Of a stretch of 64,000 nucleotides of DNA, positions 5,135 to 57,767 are shown piece after piece; positions within the stretch are counted from its first letter, which is position 1, and each line of letters opens with the position of its first letter. The stretch is from Chlorobiota bacterium (GTDB taxonomy: Bacteria > Bacteroidota > Ignavibacteria > OLB7): NCBI GenBank assembly GCA_028287785.1, contig JAQBOZ010000027.1, forward strand, positions 124,001 through 188,000, in the 5' to 3' direction. The notes below the pieces were generated by a model, which was not told the DNA's origin, searched no databases, and saw nothing but the letters and a program-made list of their open reading frames with translations. Position numbers and translations under genes: made by a program.

Positions 5135-5372
5135 GACATGGCTCCGCGCGAATGAATGAAACCACCGGAGGATGATCGGATGGAGGATGCCATCGCCCGA
5201 TCGTTACGCACTCGGTTTCCGGTCGTTCATATTCGATCACCAACGGATATGCCAGCGATGATTTTCGGTCGAATGGTGGATGTTTCCGGGAGCCTGTGGT
5301 GAAACGGGGTCACTATCCGTGCGTTTCGGTCACGATATCGATGGGGCGTGCCGATGCCGCTCCACGCCCCGT

Positions 5373-6011
5373 TCACCGTCGCCAGCGTTCCAGCCGTTTC
5401 TCCAGCAGCGACAGCCCGAAATCGGCCCCGAGCGCCAGCAGCGCCGTCGGTATGGCGCCGGCCAGCATCTCCTCGGGCCTGTAGAGGCTGATCCCGGCAA
5501 AGATGAAATCCCCCAGCCCTCCCGCGCCGATCAGCGATGCCAGGGCGCCCGCCGATATCGCGACCACCGTGGCGGTCCTGATCCCGGCGATGATGTAGGC
5601 GCCGGCCAGCGGAAGCTGGACCGAGCGAAGGATCTGCAACTGTGTCATACCCAGCCCGCGCGCCGCGTCCACGGCGGCGTCGGGGACCGACTGAATGCCG
5701 GTGTAGCAGTTGCGCGCGATCGGCAGAATCGAATAGAGGAGCAGGGCGATCACGGCCGGCACCACGCCGATGCCGAGCAGGCCGACCGCCAGCGCGAGGA
5801 GGGCGAGCGACGGGATGGTCTGCCCCAGCCCCAGAAGGTAGAACACCGGGCCGCGTATCCTCCGCGCCCATCCCCGCGACAGGGCGATGCCGATGCCCAT
5901 GCCGAGCGGAATCGCCAGCAGCAGCGCCACGCCGACGGTGCGGACATGCTCCCCAAGCCGCAGCCCGATATCCTTCAGGTGGTCAGCGAAGAAGGGGAAC
6001 AGCTCGTTCAT
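5373..6011 (-). CDS. ABC transporter permease, OpuC/ProW (osmoprotectant) type
   Basis: 212 aa integral membrane protein with the usual five to six hydrophobic segments of binding-protein-dependent permeases. The EAA-like cytoplasmic loop is visible (DAARGLGMTQLQILRSVQLPLA), as is the downstream IGAGGLGDFI motif typical of OpuCB/OpuCD and ProW proteins. I start it at the Met reading MNELFPFF because the ATG overlaps the stop of the upstream permease gene by 4 bases, a common operon arrangement. The reading frame continues upstream only as a shadow of that gene. It is the last gene of an ATPase-permease-permease operon likely importing glycine betaine, choline or related quaternary amines. No substrate-binding protein or fused binding domain is visible, so the substrate is inferred from family resemblance only. 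Confidence 0.88.
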   Translation of the reverse strand: MNELFPFFADHLKDIGLRLGEHVRTVGVALLLAIPLGMGIGIALSRGWARRIRGPVFYLLGLGQTIPSLALLALAVGLLGIGVVPAVIALLLYSILPIARNCYTGIQSVPDAAVDAARGLGMTQLQILRSVQLPLAGAYIIAGIRTATVVAISAGALASLIGAGGLGDFIFAGISLYRPEEMLAGAIPTALLALGADFGLSLLEKRLERWRR

Positions 6012-7943: not shown

Positions 7944-9368
7944 ATGAAGCTGATTTCTACTCTGATCCTTCTCCTGATGATTCGCGTGGCCGCATTCGCG
8001 CAGTGCGATTGCGGCCCGGTCGGGGATCTCCTCAACGGGACGAGGGATACCGTCGGTTCGGTCGATGGGCTGCGCGCGGCGATCGCCGGCGCGAACGGGC
8101 CGACGGCGATCTACCTCCGCGACGGAGAGTATGCGCTTACCGGCGCTGTTACCATCAGCAGGCCGGGGATCATCATACGCTCGCTCTCGGGAAACCGGGG
8201 GGGCGTCGTTATCACCGGCATTGCTCTCTCGCCGGACTCCGCGGCCTTCCGCGTGACGGAGGGGAATTTCACGCTCGCCGATCTCACTGTTCGCGGCATG
8301 GCGTCGAGCGCGGTGGTTATCGATCCGGGCCATCCCATCAGCAACCTGCTGCTTCACAATGTGGACTTCCAGGATGCCGGGACAACGCTGGTGCGTGCGG
8401 ATGGAACGGCGCTGGCGGACGCCGGCAACGGCATCGTGGAGTGTTGCCGGTTCGGCTACTCCGCATCGAAAAGCCGCAATCAGCCGGTCTATGGGATTCG
8501 CGTGAACGGGGGGACGAACTGGTCGATCACCAACTCGGTGTTCGAGGATATCGCGTCAGCCTCGGAGCCCGTGCCGGTCAGCACGGCTATTGTGGTGACG
8601 GGCGGGGCGGGCAATATCCAGATCTCCCGGAACCGGATCACCGGCTGCGATCTCGGGATGTTTGTCGGGGATTCCACCAGCTTTACCACGTTCGTGGAGA
8701 ATGTCATCGTCGGGAACAATTTCATCACCGGCGGTTTCGGCGATGGCGGCGGAATGCTCTTCGCGGCGGCGCAGGGGGTCACGATTCAGCACAACTCCGT
8801 CTACCGTCCCGGCACGCCGAAAACCGGCGCGATCACCATCCGCTATCCGCAGAGCTTCGGGGTCAGCCTGTATGACAATCTCACCGACAACCCGACCGTG
8901 CTGATCGATGTGATCGGCGTTCTCTCCAGCGGAAACTACGATCATATCACCGCCACCAGCTTCGTTGATGTGACGAAGGGGGATCTCCATCTGAGGGCCG
9001 GCTCTCCCGCTATCGACATCGGCTCGCAGCAGGCAAGCAGCGATATCGACTGCGCGCCGGTAACGGACGGCCGCCCGGATGTCGGCGCCGATGAATTTGT
9101 CAAACCCGCGTCGGTCGATGGCGATGAGGATGCCTCGCCGCTTCAATGCTCCTACTCCGGCGCCGAACGGCTGATCCGGGTTCACGCGCGTGGAGGCGTG
9201 GAGGTCACGGCGGAGATGATCGACATCACCGGGCGGATCGTCTTTCACGGAGCCTGCCGGGGCGATGCCGTGCTTCCGGTGCCGGGGATCGCGCCGGGCG
9301 CCTATATTCTGGTCGTTCGTGGCGCGCGCGGAGAGATGGCAGGCAGAAAGATCATCGTCGGGCGTTGA
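7944..9368 (+). CDS. Secreted right-handed beta-helix protein with T9SS-type C-terminal domain
   Basis: 474 aa. A signal peptide is clear (MKLISTLILLLMI, cleavage after AFAQ). Residues about 50-370 show the short imperfect repeats of a parallel beta-helix (GIIIRSLSGNRGG, NLLLHNVDFQDAG, GNIQISRNRITGC, GVTIQHNSVYRPG), followed by a choice-of-anchor-Q-like segment (DLHLRAGSPAIDIGS, then CAPVTDGRPDVGADE). The final 75 residues form a T9SS type A-like sorting domain (VTAEMIDITGRIV, IAPGAYILVVRG). The family includes surface polysaccharide-binding and depolymerising proteins. No catalytic residues can be assigned, so the substrate is unknown. Translation starts 7-8 bases after AAGGA. A strong terminator follows. 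Confidence 0.85.
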   Translation: MKLISTLILLLMIRVAAFAQCDCGPVGDLLNGTRDTVGSVDGLRAAIAGANGPTAIYLRDGEYALTGAVTISRPGIIIRSLSGNRGGVVITGIALSPDSAAFRVTEGNFTLADLTVRGMASSAVVIDPGHPISNLLLHNVDFQDAGTTLVRADGTALADAGNGIVECCRFGYSASKSRNQPVYGIRVNGGTNWSITNSVFEDIASASEPVPVSTAIVVTGGAGNIQISRNRITGCDLGMFVGDSTSFTTFVENVIVGNNFITGGFGDGGGMLFAAAQGVTIQHNSVYRPGTPKTGAITIRYPQSFGVSLYDNLTDNPTVLIDVIGVLSSGNYDHITATSFVDVTKGDLHLRAGSPAIDIGSQQASSDIDCAPVTDGRPDVGADEFVKPASVDGDEDASPLQCSYSGAERLIRVHARGGVEVTAEMIDITGRIVFHGACRGDAVLPVPGIAPGAYILVVRGARGEMAGRKIIVGR

Positions 9369-9395
9369 CCGCGACCCCACGAGAAATGAGATTCG

Positions 9396-9438
9396 CGCGC
9401 AGGCGATCCCGATCGAATCGGGATCGCCTGCGCGTTTT
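9396..9438 (+). terminator. Rho-independent terminator
   Basis: A perfect 18-bp stem (9396-9413 with 9417-9434) with a 3-base loop is followed by TTTT. It lies 27 bases after the stop of the beta-helix protein gene. Confidence 0.85.
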
Positions 9439-9587
9439 CATCCCCGTGCATTCCGCTTCCCGGAATTTTTGATATACTGGGCCGCTGGCCCGCCGGTCGA
9501 GGCCCTTCCATGTTTTCCGTTATCAGATCTTATCCGCGCCTCACGTCCGATTGCGCGATTCGATAATCCTGTAGCTCTGCTGGAACG

Positions 9588-9908
9588 ATGATCTATCATA
9601 TCACGCTTATCCCGGACTGGGAGGCCGCCCGAGGCGGTGACGAGTATACGGCCGCGTCGCTCGGCACGGAGGGCTTCATTCATTGCTCCGAGCGGGAGCA
9701 GGTGGAGCGGAGCCTCAATCGTTTTTATCACGATCGCCCGATCGTGCTTCTTCTCGGCATCGATCCCGCGCTGCTGGCGAACGAGCTGAAATATGAGGCG
9801 GCGCACGGCGAGATATTTCCGCATATCTACGGCCCGCTCAACATCAACGCCGTCCGGACGGTGGAGACGATGGTCCGTGAAGATGGGGTGTACCGGTATT
9901 CGGGATAG
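9588..9908 (+). CDS. DUF952 family protein
   Basis: 106 aa, the full length of the DUF952 family. Family features are the N-terminal YHIT, the block EGFIHCSEREQVERSLNRFY, a central ILLGIDPALL-like strand (read here as VLLLGIDPALLANELKYE) and the terminal FPHIYGPLN segment. Biochemical function is not established. The family resembles a compact ADP-ribosyltransferase/Tpt1-like fold, and that link is general knowledge rather than visible here. It ends 48 bases before the likely ddl start on the same strand, so the two may be co-transcribed. A weak TATACT sequence lies about 115 bases upstream. Confidence 0.85.
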   Translation: MIYHITLIPDWEAARGGDEYTAASLGTEGFIHCSEREQVERSLNRFYHDRPIVLLLGIDPALLANELKYEAAHGEIFPHIYGPLNINAVRTVETMVREDGVYRYSG

Positions 9909-52168: not shown

Positions 52169-52317
52169 ACATTGGTTCGTGATGGCCTTTTACGCTACTT
52201 TTGCCCTTCGTGTCGCTTCGGCCGCTGGATGGAGGGGGGAAGCATCCCCCGTCCGATCTCCCCGATTTCATCGCGGAGCCGGCCGCCGATCGTGAACTTA
52301 CCAACAACCGAACAGCA

Positions 52318-53727
52318 ATGGCTCTTTCACTCGATACTATCGTTTCGCTCGCCAAGAGGCGCGGTTTCATCTTCCAGTCATCCGAGATCTACGGGGGGCT
52401 GAACGGCTGCTGGGATTACGGCCCTCTCGGCGTCGAGCTTCTCAGGAACATCAAGGAATCATGGTGGCGCGAGATGACCTATCGCGATGACATCGAGGGG
52501 CTCGACGCGTCGATCCTGATGCACCCGCGCGTCTGGGAGGCATCGGGTCATGTGCAGAGCTTCTCCGATCCGATGATCGACAACAAGACCAGCAAGGTCC
52601 GCCATCGCGCTGATCATCTGATCGAGGGGGAGATCGAGAAGCTGCGGAAGAAGGGGCGGACCGACAGGGCGGATGAGCTGCAGGCCAAGCTGGATGCGGC
52701 CGGGGACCCCGCCGCGCTCTTCCAGTTGATTCTGGATAACGAGATCAAGGACCCGGTGAGCGGCACATCGGACTGGACCGAGGTGCGCCAGTTCAACCTG
52801 ATGTTCAAGACGCATATCGGCCCGCTGGAGGAGACCGCATCGGTTGTGTATCTGCGGCCGGAGACGGCGCAGGGGATCTTCGTGAACTTCAACAATGTGC
52901 TCCAGTCCTCGCGGCAGAAGATCCCGTTCGGGATCGGGCAGATCGGCAAATCCTTCCGCAACGAGATCAACACCAAGAACTTCCTCTTCCGCACGCGGGA
53001 GTTCGAGCAGATGGAGATGCAGTTTTTCGTGAAGCCGGGGGAGGATGAGAAGTGGTACGAATACTGGCGCGAGCAGCGCTGGAACTGGTTTCGTGATCTC
53101 GGGATGACGATGGAGAAGCTCCGGATGAAGCCGCACGCAAAGCTGGCGCATTACGCAAAGGCCGCGGTCGATATCGAGTACGAGTTTCCGTTTGGCTGGG
53201 GAGAGCTGGAGGGAATCCATAACCGGAGCGATTTCGACCTGAGCCGCCACACTGAGTATTCCGGCAAGAAGCTGGAGTACTACGAGGAGGCCACCAAGGA
53301 GCGCTTCGTCCCGTACGTGATCGAAACCGCCGTCGGCGCATCGCGCTCCACGATGGCGTTCCTGACCGATGCCTATCGGGAGGAGGAGGTCAACGGGGAG
53401 ACGCGGACGGTGCTTCGCTTCCATCCGAAGCTGGCGCCCTATAAGCTGGCCGTGCTGCCGCTGATAAACAGGGACGGCATGCCGGAGTTTGCAACGAAGC
53501 TCTACCACGATGTACAGCGGAAGTTCAAGACCTTCTATGATACATCGGGCGCCGTCGGCCGCCGTTACAGACGTCAGGATGAGGCGGGAACCCCCTTCTG
53601 CACCACGATCGACGGGCAGACGCTGGAGGATGGAACCGTCACCGTGCGCGATCGCGATTCGATGGAGCAGATCCGCATCCCGGCTGATGGAATCATGGGA
53701 TATATCCAGGAGAAAATCGGCGGATAG
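52318..53727 (+). CDS. glyS: Glycyl-tRNA synthetase, alpha2 (single-chain) type
   Basis: 469 aa class II synthetase. Motifs: SLAKRRGFIFQSSEIYGGLNGCWDYGPLG, class II motif 2 in GIGQIGKSFRNEINTKNFLFRTREFEQMEM, YLRPETAQGIFVNF, EFPFGWGELEGIHNRSDFDL, and motif 3 with IETAVGASRSTMAFL. The C-terminal anticodon-binding domain begins FHPKLAPYKLAVLPL and ends in EQIRIPADGIMGYI. This is the archaeal/eukaryote-like dimeric form rather than the GlyQ/GlyS tetramer. I begin at MALSLDTI; 39 upstream in-frame codons are not conserved. A strong terminator follows. Confidence 0.96.
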   Translation: MALSLDTIVSLAKRRGFIFQSSEIYGGLNGCWDYGPLGVELLRNIKESWWREMTYRDDIEGLDASILMHPRVWEASGHVQSFSDPMIDNKTSKVRHRADHLIEGEIEKLRKKGRTDRADELQAKLDAAGDPAALFQLILDNEIKDPVSGTSDWTEVRQFNLMFKTHIGPLEETASVVYLRPETAQGIFVNFNNVLQSSRQKIPFGIGQIGKSFRNEINTKNFLFRTREFEQMEMQFFVKPGEDEKWYEYWREQRWNWFRDLGMTMEKLRMKPHAKLAHYAKAAVDIEYEFPFGWGELEGIHNRSDFDLSRHTEYSGKKLEYYEEATKERFVPYVIETAVGASRSTMAFLTDAYREEEVNGETRTVLRFHPKLAPYKLAVLPLINRDGMPEFATKLYHDVQRKFKTFYDTSGAVGRRYRRQDEAGTPFCTTIDGQTLEDGTVTVRDRDSMEQIRIPADGIMGYIQEKIGG

Positions 53728-54882: not shown

Positions 54883-56100
54883 ATGCCACGCAAACGCGAC
54901 GTTGCTGTCAGTGAGAGTCTGAAGGAGCTTCTGCGACTCGAGGCCCGGTACAAGGGAAAACCCGAAGCCGCGCGTATTCTGATGTTGAAGCTGCTGAAGG
55001 AATCTCCCGAACGCGAGTTCGAGGACGTGGTCCCGCTGGTGAACTATTCGCGCACCACCGTAAAACGCTGGTGGCGACTATATCGGGGTGGCGGCATTGA
55101 TGCCCTGCTGAACCTGAGCACCAGGGTGAGGGAGCGCCAGCCGGGACAGCCACTGCATGCGTTGAAAAAGAAGCTGGACGCCGGGGAATTTACCAGTATC
55201 GATGACGTTCAGACCTGGATTGATCTGATCAGAGCGAAGAGCAACGGCAGCGTGGAAAAGGGGCGTATCGGTGTTTCGGAGAACCTGAACGGCGCGTACA
55301 ACCGGCATGTGCCGGCTATTCCACAGTCATTGCCGCAGGGGGGAGCAAGCGAATCGGACAGACTGTTTCGATTTCTCGAGGATCTTCCCGTTACTCATAA
55401 TCTTGATGAATGGGTCGGCGCGTTCAAGGCGGCACTCCGGGAATTATTGCAGGATGTTGATCGAATTACGGTCAGTCTCAACGCGCAATGCGATCTTATC
55501 AACCCCGATAAGTACGAGCCGAATGTGTTCGTGGCGCAGAGCGTAACCACGGGACAGAAAACCGTCGATCCGGGATCGATGGAATCCGGTGAGGATTCGC
55601 GCGATCCGTTCAAACGGTTGCTCGATTATCTGCATCGCGTAAAATTTCCGTTCGAGGATTATCACACTCCACACAGCCAGATATTCTATTTCGGGCGGCA
55701 GGCCTATCTGGGGACAATCCTTCTCTGGCGCGATCGTGGAAATCCCCCGATATCTCAGGAAACCGTCCACCTTATGGAGCGCCTGCACGGTTTTCTGATC
55801 CTCATCCTCTCCGATTTCGTTGCCCGGCATCGCGTGGCGAGGCCGCTGGAGCATGTATTCAACGCGGCATTCAGCGAGCTGGCCCGGGAAACCGGCCTGA
55901 CGATGCAGGAACGCCGCATTTTTATATTGCTGCTGATTGGATTATCCTACGAGGAAGTGGCGAAAACCTTGAATATATCGGTTAATACAGTTCGGTATCA
56001 CCTGAGATCGCTGTATAATAAGACCGGAACCCACGGCCAGACGGAGCTGTTCGCGAAGTACTTCACACCCCGCTATGACCCACCCGCGTCCCAGAAATAA
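54883..56100 (+). CDS. Chimeric transcriptional regulator: IS630-like winged-helix N terminus plus LuxR-type HTH C terminus
   Basis: 405 aa. Residues about 20-85 resemble the DNA-binding region of IS630/Tc1-mariner transposases (KGKPEAARILMLKLLKES, then NYSRTTVKRWWRLYRGGGIDALLN), without any DDE catalytic domain after it. A middle part (about 160-325) with DRITVSLNAQCDLINPDKY and LGTILLWRDRGNPPIS has the feel of a GAF-like sensor. Residues about 342-386 form a LuxR/GerE HTH (LTMQERRIFILLLIGLSYEEVAKTL, then SVNTVRYHLRSLYNKTG). AAGGAG sits six bases before the ATG, a stronger site than most in the window. It precedes two genes for secreted proteins on the same strand and may regulate them. The ligand is unknown. 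Confidence 0.78.
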   Translation: MPRKRDVAVSESLKELLRLEARYKGKPEAARILMLKLLKESPEREFEDVVPLVNYSRTTVKRWWRLYRGGGIDALLNLSTRVRERQPGQPLHALKKKLDAGEFTSIDDVQTWIDLIRAKSNGSVEKGRIGVSENLNGAYNRHVPAIPQSLPQGGASESDRLFRFLEDLPVTHNLDEWVGAFKAALRELLQDVDRITVSLNAQCDLINPDKYEPNVFVAQSVTTGQKTVDPGSMESGEDSRDPFKRLLDYLHRVKFPFEDYHTPHSQIFYFGRQAYLGTILLWRDRGNPPISQETVHLMERLHGFLILILSDFVARHRVARPLEHVFNAAFSELARETGLTMQERRIFILLLIGLSYEEVAKTLNISVNTVRYHLRSLYNKTGTHGQTELFAKYFTPRYDPPASQK

Positions 56101-56274
56101 GGTCCATCGATAAGGTCCGTTTGAGTGCAGAACTACATCTACATGCGGGTGACTTCACCATGCCGGATGTTGCATCTTTGTGCGGCGCTGAAACCAGGTG
56201 TTGCTCAGGCTCCCAACTTCCATGAGCAACATCCCATCGCGTTAGTCTTCACTTGCCAGATTCAAGGAATGCCC

Positions 56275-56877
56275 ATGAAAGGAGCTCTACTCGCGTTCGC
56301 TCTTCTGTTGATCTGTGTTATCTCTGCTCACTCACAGCAGATCCCATGTATTGATGCCGGCTCGACGATCGAGGATACGGTATATCAATCACTTACGATC
56401 CCGGGCGGCATCTTCGGCTTCAGCAGATCCGGTATCACTCCCCTCAGTTCCGGCGGTTTGATCCTCTCCTGGGAGTTCATCTCCGAACGCACTTCGAGCG
56501 GCCAGCATAACTATGTTATCAGCATCCCCTCCATCTCCTTCAGCGGAGATTGCAGTGGGGTGGACGGGATGACCGCCTCGCAGATCCTCGATCTGATAGC
56601 AAAGGCGACGGTGTCTCGTGGCGTTGCTCTTGGATACACCCCCTGTCCGGCCTCGTGTTCGGCCCCGACGCTGACGAAAGTATCGCAGCCGGCGTGCGTC
56701 AAACGCACTGGAAGCGGTTGCGCGACCCATTTCTCCGCATGCGTACCGATCGAATGCTGTGTGCGATTCTACAGCGTTTGCTGCCCGAACGGAACGACAT
56801 CACCTCAAGTCACCCTCCTCGGCGCTTCGAGCGGCGGGTGCTCAGGCCTGGAAGGATGCGAGCCCACCTGCCCATGA
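56275..56877 (+). CDS. Cysteine-rich secreted protein of unknown function
   Basis: 200 aa. A signal peptide (MKGALLAFALLLICVISAHSQ) is followed by a mature chain with 14 cysteines, an even number that suits disulfides. Residues 25-120 form a beta-rich part (TIEDTVYQSLTIPGGIFGF, then GGLILSWEFISER). The Cys-rich second half has clustered motifs CPASC, CVPIECC, SVCC and GCSGLEGCEPTC. I recognise no family and see no T9SS-type C-terminal domain, so export would be by Sec only unless another route exists. AAGGA lies seven bases before the chosen ATG. It sits between a chimeric regulator and a T9SS-domain protein, spaced 175 and 53 bases from them. Confidence 0.7.
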   Translation: MKGALLAFALLLICVISAHSQQIPCIDAGSTIEDTVYQSLTIPGGIFGFSRSGITPLSSGGLILSWEFISERTSSGQHNYVISIPSISFSGDCSGVDGMTASQILDLIAKATVSRGVALGYTPCPASCSAPTLTKVSQPACVKRTGSGCATHFSACVPIECCVRFYSVCCPNGTTSPQVTLLGASSGGCSGLEGCEPTCP

Positions 56878-56930
56878 CCTGAATTGCAATCGAACTATTC
56901 GCGGTAGCCATAAACTGAAAAGGTACAATC

Positions 56931-57467
56931 ATGATGAACGGAAAAAATCTACGAATGGTCGTCGCCGGGATCGCTCTCGGGTTGGTCGCGGCCACAGGCA
57001 CGATGCGCGCACAGATATCCGACCACCGCGAGAACCAGTCGGCGTCCCATTCCAACGTCCAGGTGATGGTGGTGGCAATGGAGCACGGTCGCTATCTCAT
57101 CACGCAGAATGGGGGATCGAGCTGGGGAATCGTTGAGGCGAAGGATATCACCTCGTTGCCGGGGAATATTCTACAGCTTATCAAGCGAACCAGCGCCGAA
57201 AATCCCTCCACGGCGGTTACCGCCATGCCCAACCCCGCGCGGGAACGGGTCACCCTCCGCTATGCGCTGCCAGAGCCGGGCAACGTATCGGTCGCGCTGT
57301 TCGATATGACGGGCCAGCAGGTGCTCAGCAGGAGCCAGCAGATGTTCCAGACCGGCGAGCATGCCGATGTTATCGATATTTCGAGCCTGCCCGGCGGAGC
57401 CTACTACTACCGAATCATTGTTGATGGGGGGGCCATCGGTAATGGTGTAGTCACGGTTGTCCGCTGA
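56931..57467 (+). CDS. Small secreted protein with T9SS-type C-terminal sorting domain
   Basis: 178 aa. The signal peptide ends near MRAQ (residue 28). Residues 29-90 carry a short beta-rich unit (SNVQVMVVAMEHGRYLITQNG, then SWGIVEAKDI). Residues 95-178 are a T9SS type A-like sorting domain: TAMPNPARERVTLRYALP, VALFDMTGQQVL, ADVIDISSLPGGAYYYRI, ending GVVTVVR. Cargo of only about 60 residues is unusual. The gene lies 53 bases after the Cys-rich protein gene, so the two are probably co-expressed and may act together at the cell surface. A long inverted repeat and then a strong terminator follow. Confidence 0.82.
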   Translation: MMNGKNLRMVVAGIALGLVAATGTMRAQISDHRENQSASHSNVQVMVVAMEHGRYLITQNGGSSWGIVEAKDITSLPGNILQLIKRTSAENPSTAVTAMPNPARERVTLRYALPEPGNVSVALFDMTGQQVLSRSQQMFQTGEHADVIDISSLPGGAYYYRIIVDGGAIGNGVVTVVR

Positions 57468-57474
57468 CGCAAAT

Positions 57475-57570
57475 CGGACGGCATTGCAATCACAGTAACC
57501 ACCCGGCCTGCATCACGCAGAAATGCAGGCTCAAACAAGTGTGCAATGCCGTCCGGGCTCGTAATTTTTT
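57475..57570 (+). terminator. Long two-tier inverted repeat ending in a T-run
   Basis: A perfect 14-bp outer stem (CGGACGGCATTGCA at 57475-57488 with 57542-57555) encloses an inner 8-bp stem (GCCTGCAT at 57506-57513 with 57523-57530), and six Ts follow at 57565-57570. It starts 8 bases after the T9SS-domain gene stop. It is larger than a normal terminator and may be a structured 3' UTR or a boundary element. Confidence 0.55.
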
Positions 57571-57599
57571 CACCGCCTCATTGTAGAGGCAGTTTCAAT

Positions 57600-57632
57600 G
57601 GCCGGTCGCAGTCTTGCGACCGGCCTGTTTTA
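57600..57632 (+). terminator. Rho-independent terminator
   Basis: GGCCGGTCGCA at 57600-57610 pairs exactly with 57615-57625 across a 4-base loop, followed by TGTTTTATTT. Confidence 0.88.
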
Positions 57633-57767
57633 TTTCAGGGGATAGCCCAGGCGAATGTCCGGCCGGTCCCCCGATGTGACCAAATCCTTGTCGAATCGTA
57701 AACGGAGCCGCCCTTCCGGAATTCATCAGGATGTCGGTCTCGCAAAAAGCGCTAACTTCGGCGCGAT

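Follow-up and report, generated by a model that had tools for sequence, protein, structure and literature searches.

Three consecutive same-strand genes, encoding a regulator, a Cys-rich secreted protein and a very small protein carrying a type IX secretion system (T9SS) sorting domain, stand near the end of the 64,000-nt stretch of Chlorobiota DNA analysed here (the window). Do they form a unit, and, if so, what might that unit do? All three open reading frames (ORFs) called in a first-pass annotation, which had been made from the sequence by itself, are present (Table 1). Below, genomes are labelled G### and loci L###; G000 is the window's own genome (4.75 Mb), and G001 corresponds to a public MAG, 'Bacteroidetes bacterium SZAS-92', the two being the genomes of the window's genus.

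Table 1. Features of the three-gene locus and its surroundings, in window coordinates
Feature	Position	Strand	Details
Regulator gene	54883..56100	+	405 aa; Pfam/NCBIfam
Putative operator	56130..56156	+	GAACTACATCTACATGCGGGTGACTTC, degenerate dyad; footprint common to orthologous locus L073 (AAATCACATTCGCATGCGAGTGATTTT)
Putative Bacteroidota-type promoter	56149..56180	+	GTG (-33), 21 nt, CATCTTTG (-7)
Cys-rich secreted protein gene	56275..56877	+	200 aa, 14 mature Cys, signal peptide
Small T9SS type A cargo gene	56931..57467	+	178 aa, signal peptide, Por_Secre_tail CTD
Long inverted repeat 3' of trio	57474..57556	.	one copy in genome
Intrinsic-terminator-like hairpin, then T-rich tail	57600..57625	+	
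glyS (glycyl-tRNA synthetase)	52201..53727	+	upstream syntenic anchor, outside module

The trio is a genuine, repeatedly retained unit in one Bacteroidota family. In profile searches of 149 related genomes, the Cys-rich family turned up 16 times and in just four genomes (with 5, 6, 2 and 3 copies), which all belong to one taxonomic family. A regulator homologue lies directly upstream, on the same strand, of 15 of these genes, with gaps of ~130-750 bp; the upstream side of the 16th (L082) is off the contig. G000 alone has six further regulator homologues and four further Cys-rich homologues, each of the four adjoining such a regulator. When five genomes of the family were searched with the small T9SS protein, exactly seven full-length matches were obtained (202-224 bits; the next best, at 69 bits, covers the tail only), located in the window, G001:C25, G001:C15, G003:C81, G003:C54, G004:C75 and G004:C91. 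Every one lies directly 3' of a Cys-rich-family gene, giving seven trios across four genomes. Thus the families, whose co-occurrence the first-pass annotation had proposed to check, do recur together elsewhere. The unit consists of the regulator and the secreted protein; the T9SS gene is confined to it and is an optional third member, since nine of the 16 secreted genes lack such a partner. Seven regulator homologues are orphans with no secreted partner.

Outside the family, a phylum-wide search of 395 genomes returned no secreted homologue beyond partial matches at E > 7e-4, and the regulator matches there were to the LuxR HTH only. We found no description of this regulator/Cys-rich/T9SS module in the literature. 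The sole regulator homologue found outside the family (L086; G099:C3, Ignavibacteriae palsa_1295, contamination 7%) adjoins an 837-aa secreted-type protein and may reflect transfer or bin contamination. Some loci carry additional genes: in the orthologous loci L027 (7874-10600) and L079 (137-2800), a MalT-like large LuxR regulator of ~900 aa lies upstream of the regulator/secreted pair, and in the flipped locus L030 the C2 pair is followed by a second, unrelated-looking Cys-rich secreted ORF (9151-9660, 169 aa) and by a sigma-factor-like ORF.

The locus had been called an accessory-looking segment that follows a less GC-rich stretch. The GC profile bears out the composition (0.52-0.56 over 53.5-57 kb versus 0.60-0.68 in the preceding 5 kb), and GC is below that of the flanks in nearly all copies of the module. 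The label 'accessory' is contradicted by the position of the trio, which directly follows glyS in three species, represented by the window (G000), L073 (G001) and L085 (G004); this rules out an accessory or mobile island. The genes preceding glyS are also common to the window and L073, and some of the other regulator/secreted pairs are likewise syntenic between genomes. In the regulator tree, five well-supported orthologue groups each unite G000 and G001 sequences and predate the split of these two genomes. Together, the glyS synteny, the orthologue groups and the lower GC of nearly all copies argue that the locus is old and vertically kept. Between G003 and G004, dN/dS is <0.25 for every module gene compared. 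The long inverted repeat reported to close the block is present; the stretch 57460-57635 folds at z -5.9, an Rfam search gave sub-threshold matches only, and the single copy in the genome rules out a dispersed element.

The regulator, first described as a chimera of IS630-type and LuxR-type HTH domains, matches both in Pfam/NCBIfam searches. It comprises an IS630-like HTH region (residues ~1-120), a GAF/LuxR-sensor-like domain (~155-320) and a LuxR/GerE HTH (335-397). The GerE HTH (PF00196) scores 40.2 bits (cut-off 23.5) and is matched by all 22 homologues. The N-terminal IS630 HTH is a partial NCBIfam match (33.9 bits; cut-off 100); the same region matches HTH_23, HTH_28 and HTH_29, with HTH_32 and HTH_33 in some members, and the DDE catalytic domain of IS630 transposases is absent. 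Of the 13 partnered regulators with a covered start, 10 carry the IS630-like region; none of the seven orphans does. This extra DNA-binding region may be derived from IS630 or may simply be IS630-like. One homologue (L074:54-1025) has a C-terminal extension resembling an XRE HTH, another added DNA-binding domain.

The sensor region of the window regulator matches no Pfam family; neither a GAF model nor the autoinducer-binding domain PF03472 is among the families at E<=0.01, and the regulator profile matches the solved LuxR receptors SdiA, RhlR and CviR over the HTH only. Structure prediction yielded three parts separated by low-confidence linkers (mean pLDDT 81). The best Foldseek matches of this model are SdiA (E 1.3e-3), TraR-type proteins and RhlR; top matches have probabilities of 0.98-1.00, yet TM values of 0.14-0.27. 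With VIA-align, the HTH aligns to RcsB and others (Z ~9, 62-69 residues, rmsd 1.5-3.6), and the TraR-type structure 2q0o aligns at Z 8.3 (173 aligned, rmsd 8.5). Residues ~155-320 align to the GAF domains of DosP (Z 8.8, 116 aligned, rmsd 4.1), PDE2A (Z 8.5, 141 aligned, rmsd 4.1) and an HD-GYP protein (Z 8.5-8.8 for the three); these GAF-like matches, at Z ~8-9, fall within the range about which the aligner warns.

The second gene was annotated as encoding a secreted protein with 14 mature cysteines and no recognised family, a description that holds after its start is corrected from a GTG ORF (56125) to the ATG at 56275. Signal peptidase I is predicted to cleave before a Gln (+1), and Gln follows the predicted site in nearly all family members, in keeping with the Q-rule, by which Gln follows the cleavage site in Bacteroidetes signal peptidase I substrates (PMC5837995). 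The protein has no Pfam match at E<=1 and no meaningful family match in Pfam, NCBIfam, PHROG, PADLOC or the PDB. Ten cysteines (124, 128, 141, 156, 162, 169, 170, 189, 195 and 199) are kept in at least nine of 11 Cys-rich members. Five family members have lost nearly all of these ten; therefore, disulfides are not essential to the family. Two Cys-poor members (L085:5456-6142 and L082:5638-6222) end in a strongly basic tail (KLDRIRERIRARRAAR).

Structure prediction of the Cys-rich protein alone, as had been suggested, gave a model (mean pLDDT 88, pTM 0.79) with strands at 31-42, 62-72 and 78-91, a helix at 101-119 and further strands after it. The model has no Foldseek match in the PDB at E<=0.001 (best Z 4.4) and nothing significant in the viral fold library BFVD; its structural matches, among them a Listeria 'sex pheromone precursor' protein (Z 4.4), are at noise level. 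A Mantel test for co-evolution is not used as support because it shows a weak correlation overall (r 0.27-0.45) and none within one genus.

The third protein is, as annotated, very small and T9SS-sorted: it scores 42.3 bits with PF18962 (cut-off 27) and 38.2 bits with TIGR04183 (cut-off 23). With this C-terminal domain (CTD) and a signal peptide judged by eye, it is a predicted T9SS type A cargo. The sorting domain itself is ordinary, as ~150 T9SS type A CTDs are encoded in G000. Ahead of the CTD lies a cargo part of ~60 aa with one Asp-box-like motif (TQNGGSSW), the sole feature that the small T9SS proteins share in this part.

How might the regulator be tied to its neighbour? The regulator-to-secreted intergenic regions have in common a palindromic dyad abutting a Bacteroidota promoter (TTG, 20-21 nt, TAnnTTTG); the Bacteroides consensus is TTTG near -33 and TAnnTTTG at -7 (PMC7366714). 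The sequence CAAAAGTGNANTTG occurs in six of 15 such regions (expected 0.0 per shuffle), a post hoc discovery because the motif was derived in the same regions in which it was counted. Its rarity elsewhere is unaffected by that derivation: genome-wide, the exact sequence occurs four times in G000 and three times in G001, six of these seven occurrences fall in the regulator-to-secreted intergenics, and a reversed control has zero matches in both genomes. No exact CAAAAGTGNANTTG match lies upstream of any regulator, as autoregulation by the same box would require. A broad dyad-plus-promoter scan across all loci was set aside, as its matches, enriched in the intergenics, were also numerous in the background.

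The operator type varies among paralogues and is constant among orthologues. By locus, ACTACACAAAAGTGTAGTTGA is found in two, CTCCTCAAAAGTGTACTTG in two, a CAAAAGTG(T/C)AATTG form in two and GTACACAAACATGTACTGTT in two, with a wider form in the window/L073 pair; the operator of the L029/L074 type is ACTACACAAAAGTGTAGT. The dyad is the 24-nt intergenic block with the highest conservation, above every shuffle, in each of the five orthologue pairs. At the sister loci, the dyad terminates at a TTG, and TAnnTTTG, or a version of it with one mismatch, stands 20-21 nt further on; L081 and L083 have no scored promoter. The window operator is a degenerate dyad, identical to L073 at 17 of 24 positions (shuffle maximum 16). 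Its -7 element matches TAnnTTTG at five of six positions and its -33 GTG overlaps the operator, an arrangement seen also in L073. Because the dyad is degenerate and the promoter, scored by itself, falls short of significance (p 0.23), the case for an operator and promoter in the window rests on orthology.

The third gene is connected to the same circuit in two ways. At L074, a second copy of operator and promoter (CTACACAAATGTGTAGTTG-N20-TAGTTTTG) precedes the T9SS gene, which places that gene in the same regulon at this locus. Only 53 bp, with no such box, separate genes 2 and 3 of the window, so one transcript likely spans both. L029, the G000 orthologue of L074, has a perfect operator and a TAGCTTTG promoter (5146-5165, minus strand) after its secreted gene (5195-5884) but, unlike L074, no T9SS gene behind them. 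Downstream in L029 lies a short ORF resembling a regulator fragment, and the arrangement is probably a relic of gene loss. Elsewhere in G000, another CTCCACAAAAGTGGAATTG dyad with a near-consensus -7 element (L155; C35:63994-64012) precedes a 166-aa ORF with no Pfam match, possibly a distant regulon member.

The placement of these dyads would be much like that of the lux box, a 20-bp dyad repeat centred at -42.5 (PMC3376562). A putative dyad operator overlapping the -35/-33 element, as expected for a class-II activator, is present at the sister loci and degenerate in the window. Dyads in such a position may mediate repression too. The adjacent secreted gene thus carries a conserved putative operator, contrary to a regulator that controls only unrelated distant genes, and its predicted regulation by the adjacent regulator is well supported by the sequence.

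With gene unit, operator, promoter geometry and export signals all read from the sequence, we favour a model in which the window trio represents a one-component regulated secretion module that is restricted to the family and exists in several paralogous copies. The LuxR-type regulator, located in the cytoplasm, would sense a ligand, presumably a small molecule, through its GAF/LuxR-sensor-like domain and bind the dyad operator overlapping -33, ~110-160 bp ahead of the neighbouring gene. There it would most likely activate in the class-II manner of LuxR at the lux box, although repression is possible. Its target would be exported through Sec and contain about ten core cysteines. In the trio form, the tiny T9SS protein would be co-expressed, from the same transcript or, at a sister locus, under an operator copy of its own. 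Least certain is the last step, in which the secreted pair may act on the cell surface or in the extracellular space. Taken as a whole, this reading, a multi-copy sensor that switches adjacent secreted proteins by lux-box-like activation, is probably correct.

The strongest competitor is a module for adhesion or extracellular matrix that an environmental sensor switches in the manner of CsgD/curli or VpsT/biofilm matrix, with the Cys-rich protein as structural component and the T9SS protein as anchor or nucleator. Export signals on both proteins, the T9SS CTD and the stable, mainly beta fold predicted for the Cys-rich protein fit such a role. The distant matches to CsgD and VpsT are at the level of the HTH, however, where likeness is generic among LuxR proteins; repeats, amyloid motifs and nearby matrix genes are all absent, and a single Asp-box protein of 178 aa would make a small anchor. 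We regard this role as possible, if on balance rather unlikely.

Signalling was the other half of the initial proposal of a self-contained surface or signalling module. The first half is strongly supported by obligate co-occurrence and a conserved operator and promoter; for a signalling loop, nothing was found beyond the LuxR-like layout, and no signal, receptor or transporter was identified. If the module were a protein-based system for signalling between cells or for kin recognition, the signal would be the Cys-rich protein, whole or in part, and the T9SS protein would be a surface receptor or co-factor, with the regulator closing a LuxR/LuxI-like loop. Such a loop would fit the regulator beside its target, the lux-box-like geometry, the multiple paralogous pairs within a genome, every one having an operator type of its own, and the architecture resembling LuxR quorum-sensing receptors; moreover, the secreted partner has diverged more than the regulator in four of six nearest pairs. 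Yet the loci show no recurrent gene for a transporter, a membrane receptor or signal processing, a ~180-aa disulfide protein would hardly reach a cytoplasmic sensor, and the autoinducer-binding domain has no sequence match, making such signalling unlikely. We are slightly more sceptical of the full joint claim of a protein counterpart of LuxR/LuxI, in which several insulated regulator-operator-exoprotein channels per cell would serve cell-cell recognition or signalling through a co-opted transposase DNA-binding region, a new disulfide-rich exoprotein fold and a dedicated T9SS surface peptide, all in an uncultured lineage of Bacteroidota. The secreted proteins themselves may serve at the surface or in a matrix, or may act in signalling.

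Very unlikely is a bacteriocin-like antagonist of competitors induced by a cue: although the Cys-rich proteins are multi-copy, fast-diverging and secreted, they match no defence or phage family and no known toxin fold, and the purifying selection and the lack of a conserved immunity gene make a toxin role less likely. Chance adjacency in a low-GC accessory segment has a negligible probability, as the lower GC is outweighed by seven trios in four genomes, a third gene exclusive to the unit, and conservation of both the operator and the position after glyS; the recurrence of the trio refutes it.

The switch that we favour would tie two protein families without known relatives, defined here, to a regulator via a conserved putative operator, in a lineage of Bacteroidota whose regulatory biology is little known. 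Several operator types per genome, each kept among orthologues, offer a natural test of insulation among paralogous LuxR-type circuits, and an unusual T9SS cargo of ~60 residues confined to the module provides a handle on the purpose of very small T9SS cargos.

Among known systems, the LuxR quorum-sensing regulators (SdiA, TraR, RhlR) and 'LuxR solos' resemble the module regulator, which has a predicted sensor-like domain, in their C-terminal LuxR HTH and in a dyad of ~18-20 bp beside the -33/-35 element, as in the lux box. The regulator differs from them in its extra IS630-like N-terminal region, in a sequence likeness limited to the HTH, and in having a secreted protein instead of a synthase as its predicted target. 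GAF-LuxR one-component regulators are alike in the predicted structure of the sensor region, but the GAF match is absent at the sequence level. With IS630 family transposases the regulator shares the N-terminal HTH, here fused to a sensor and a LuxR HTH with no DDE domain. CsgD/VpsT-type regulators also control surface or secreted products through a LuxR HTH; here the sensor is different and no curli, Vps or matrix genes are nearby. Finally, the small T9SS protein has a CTD above the curated cut-off in common with T9SS type A sorted proteins, whereas its cargo of ~60 residues occurs only in this module.
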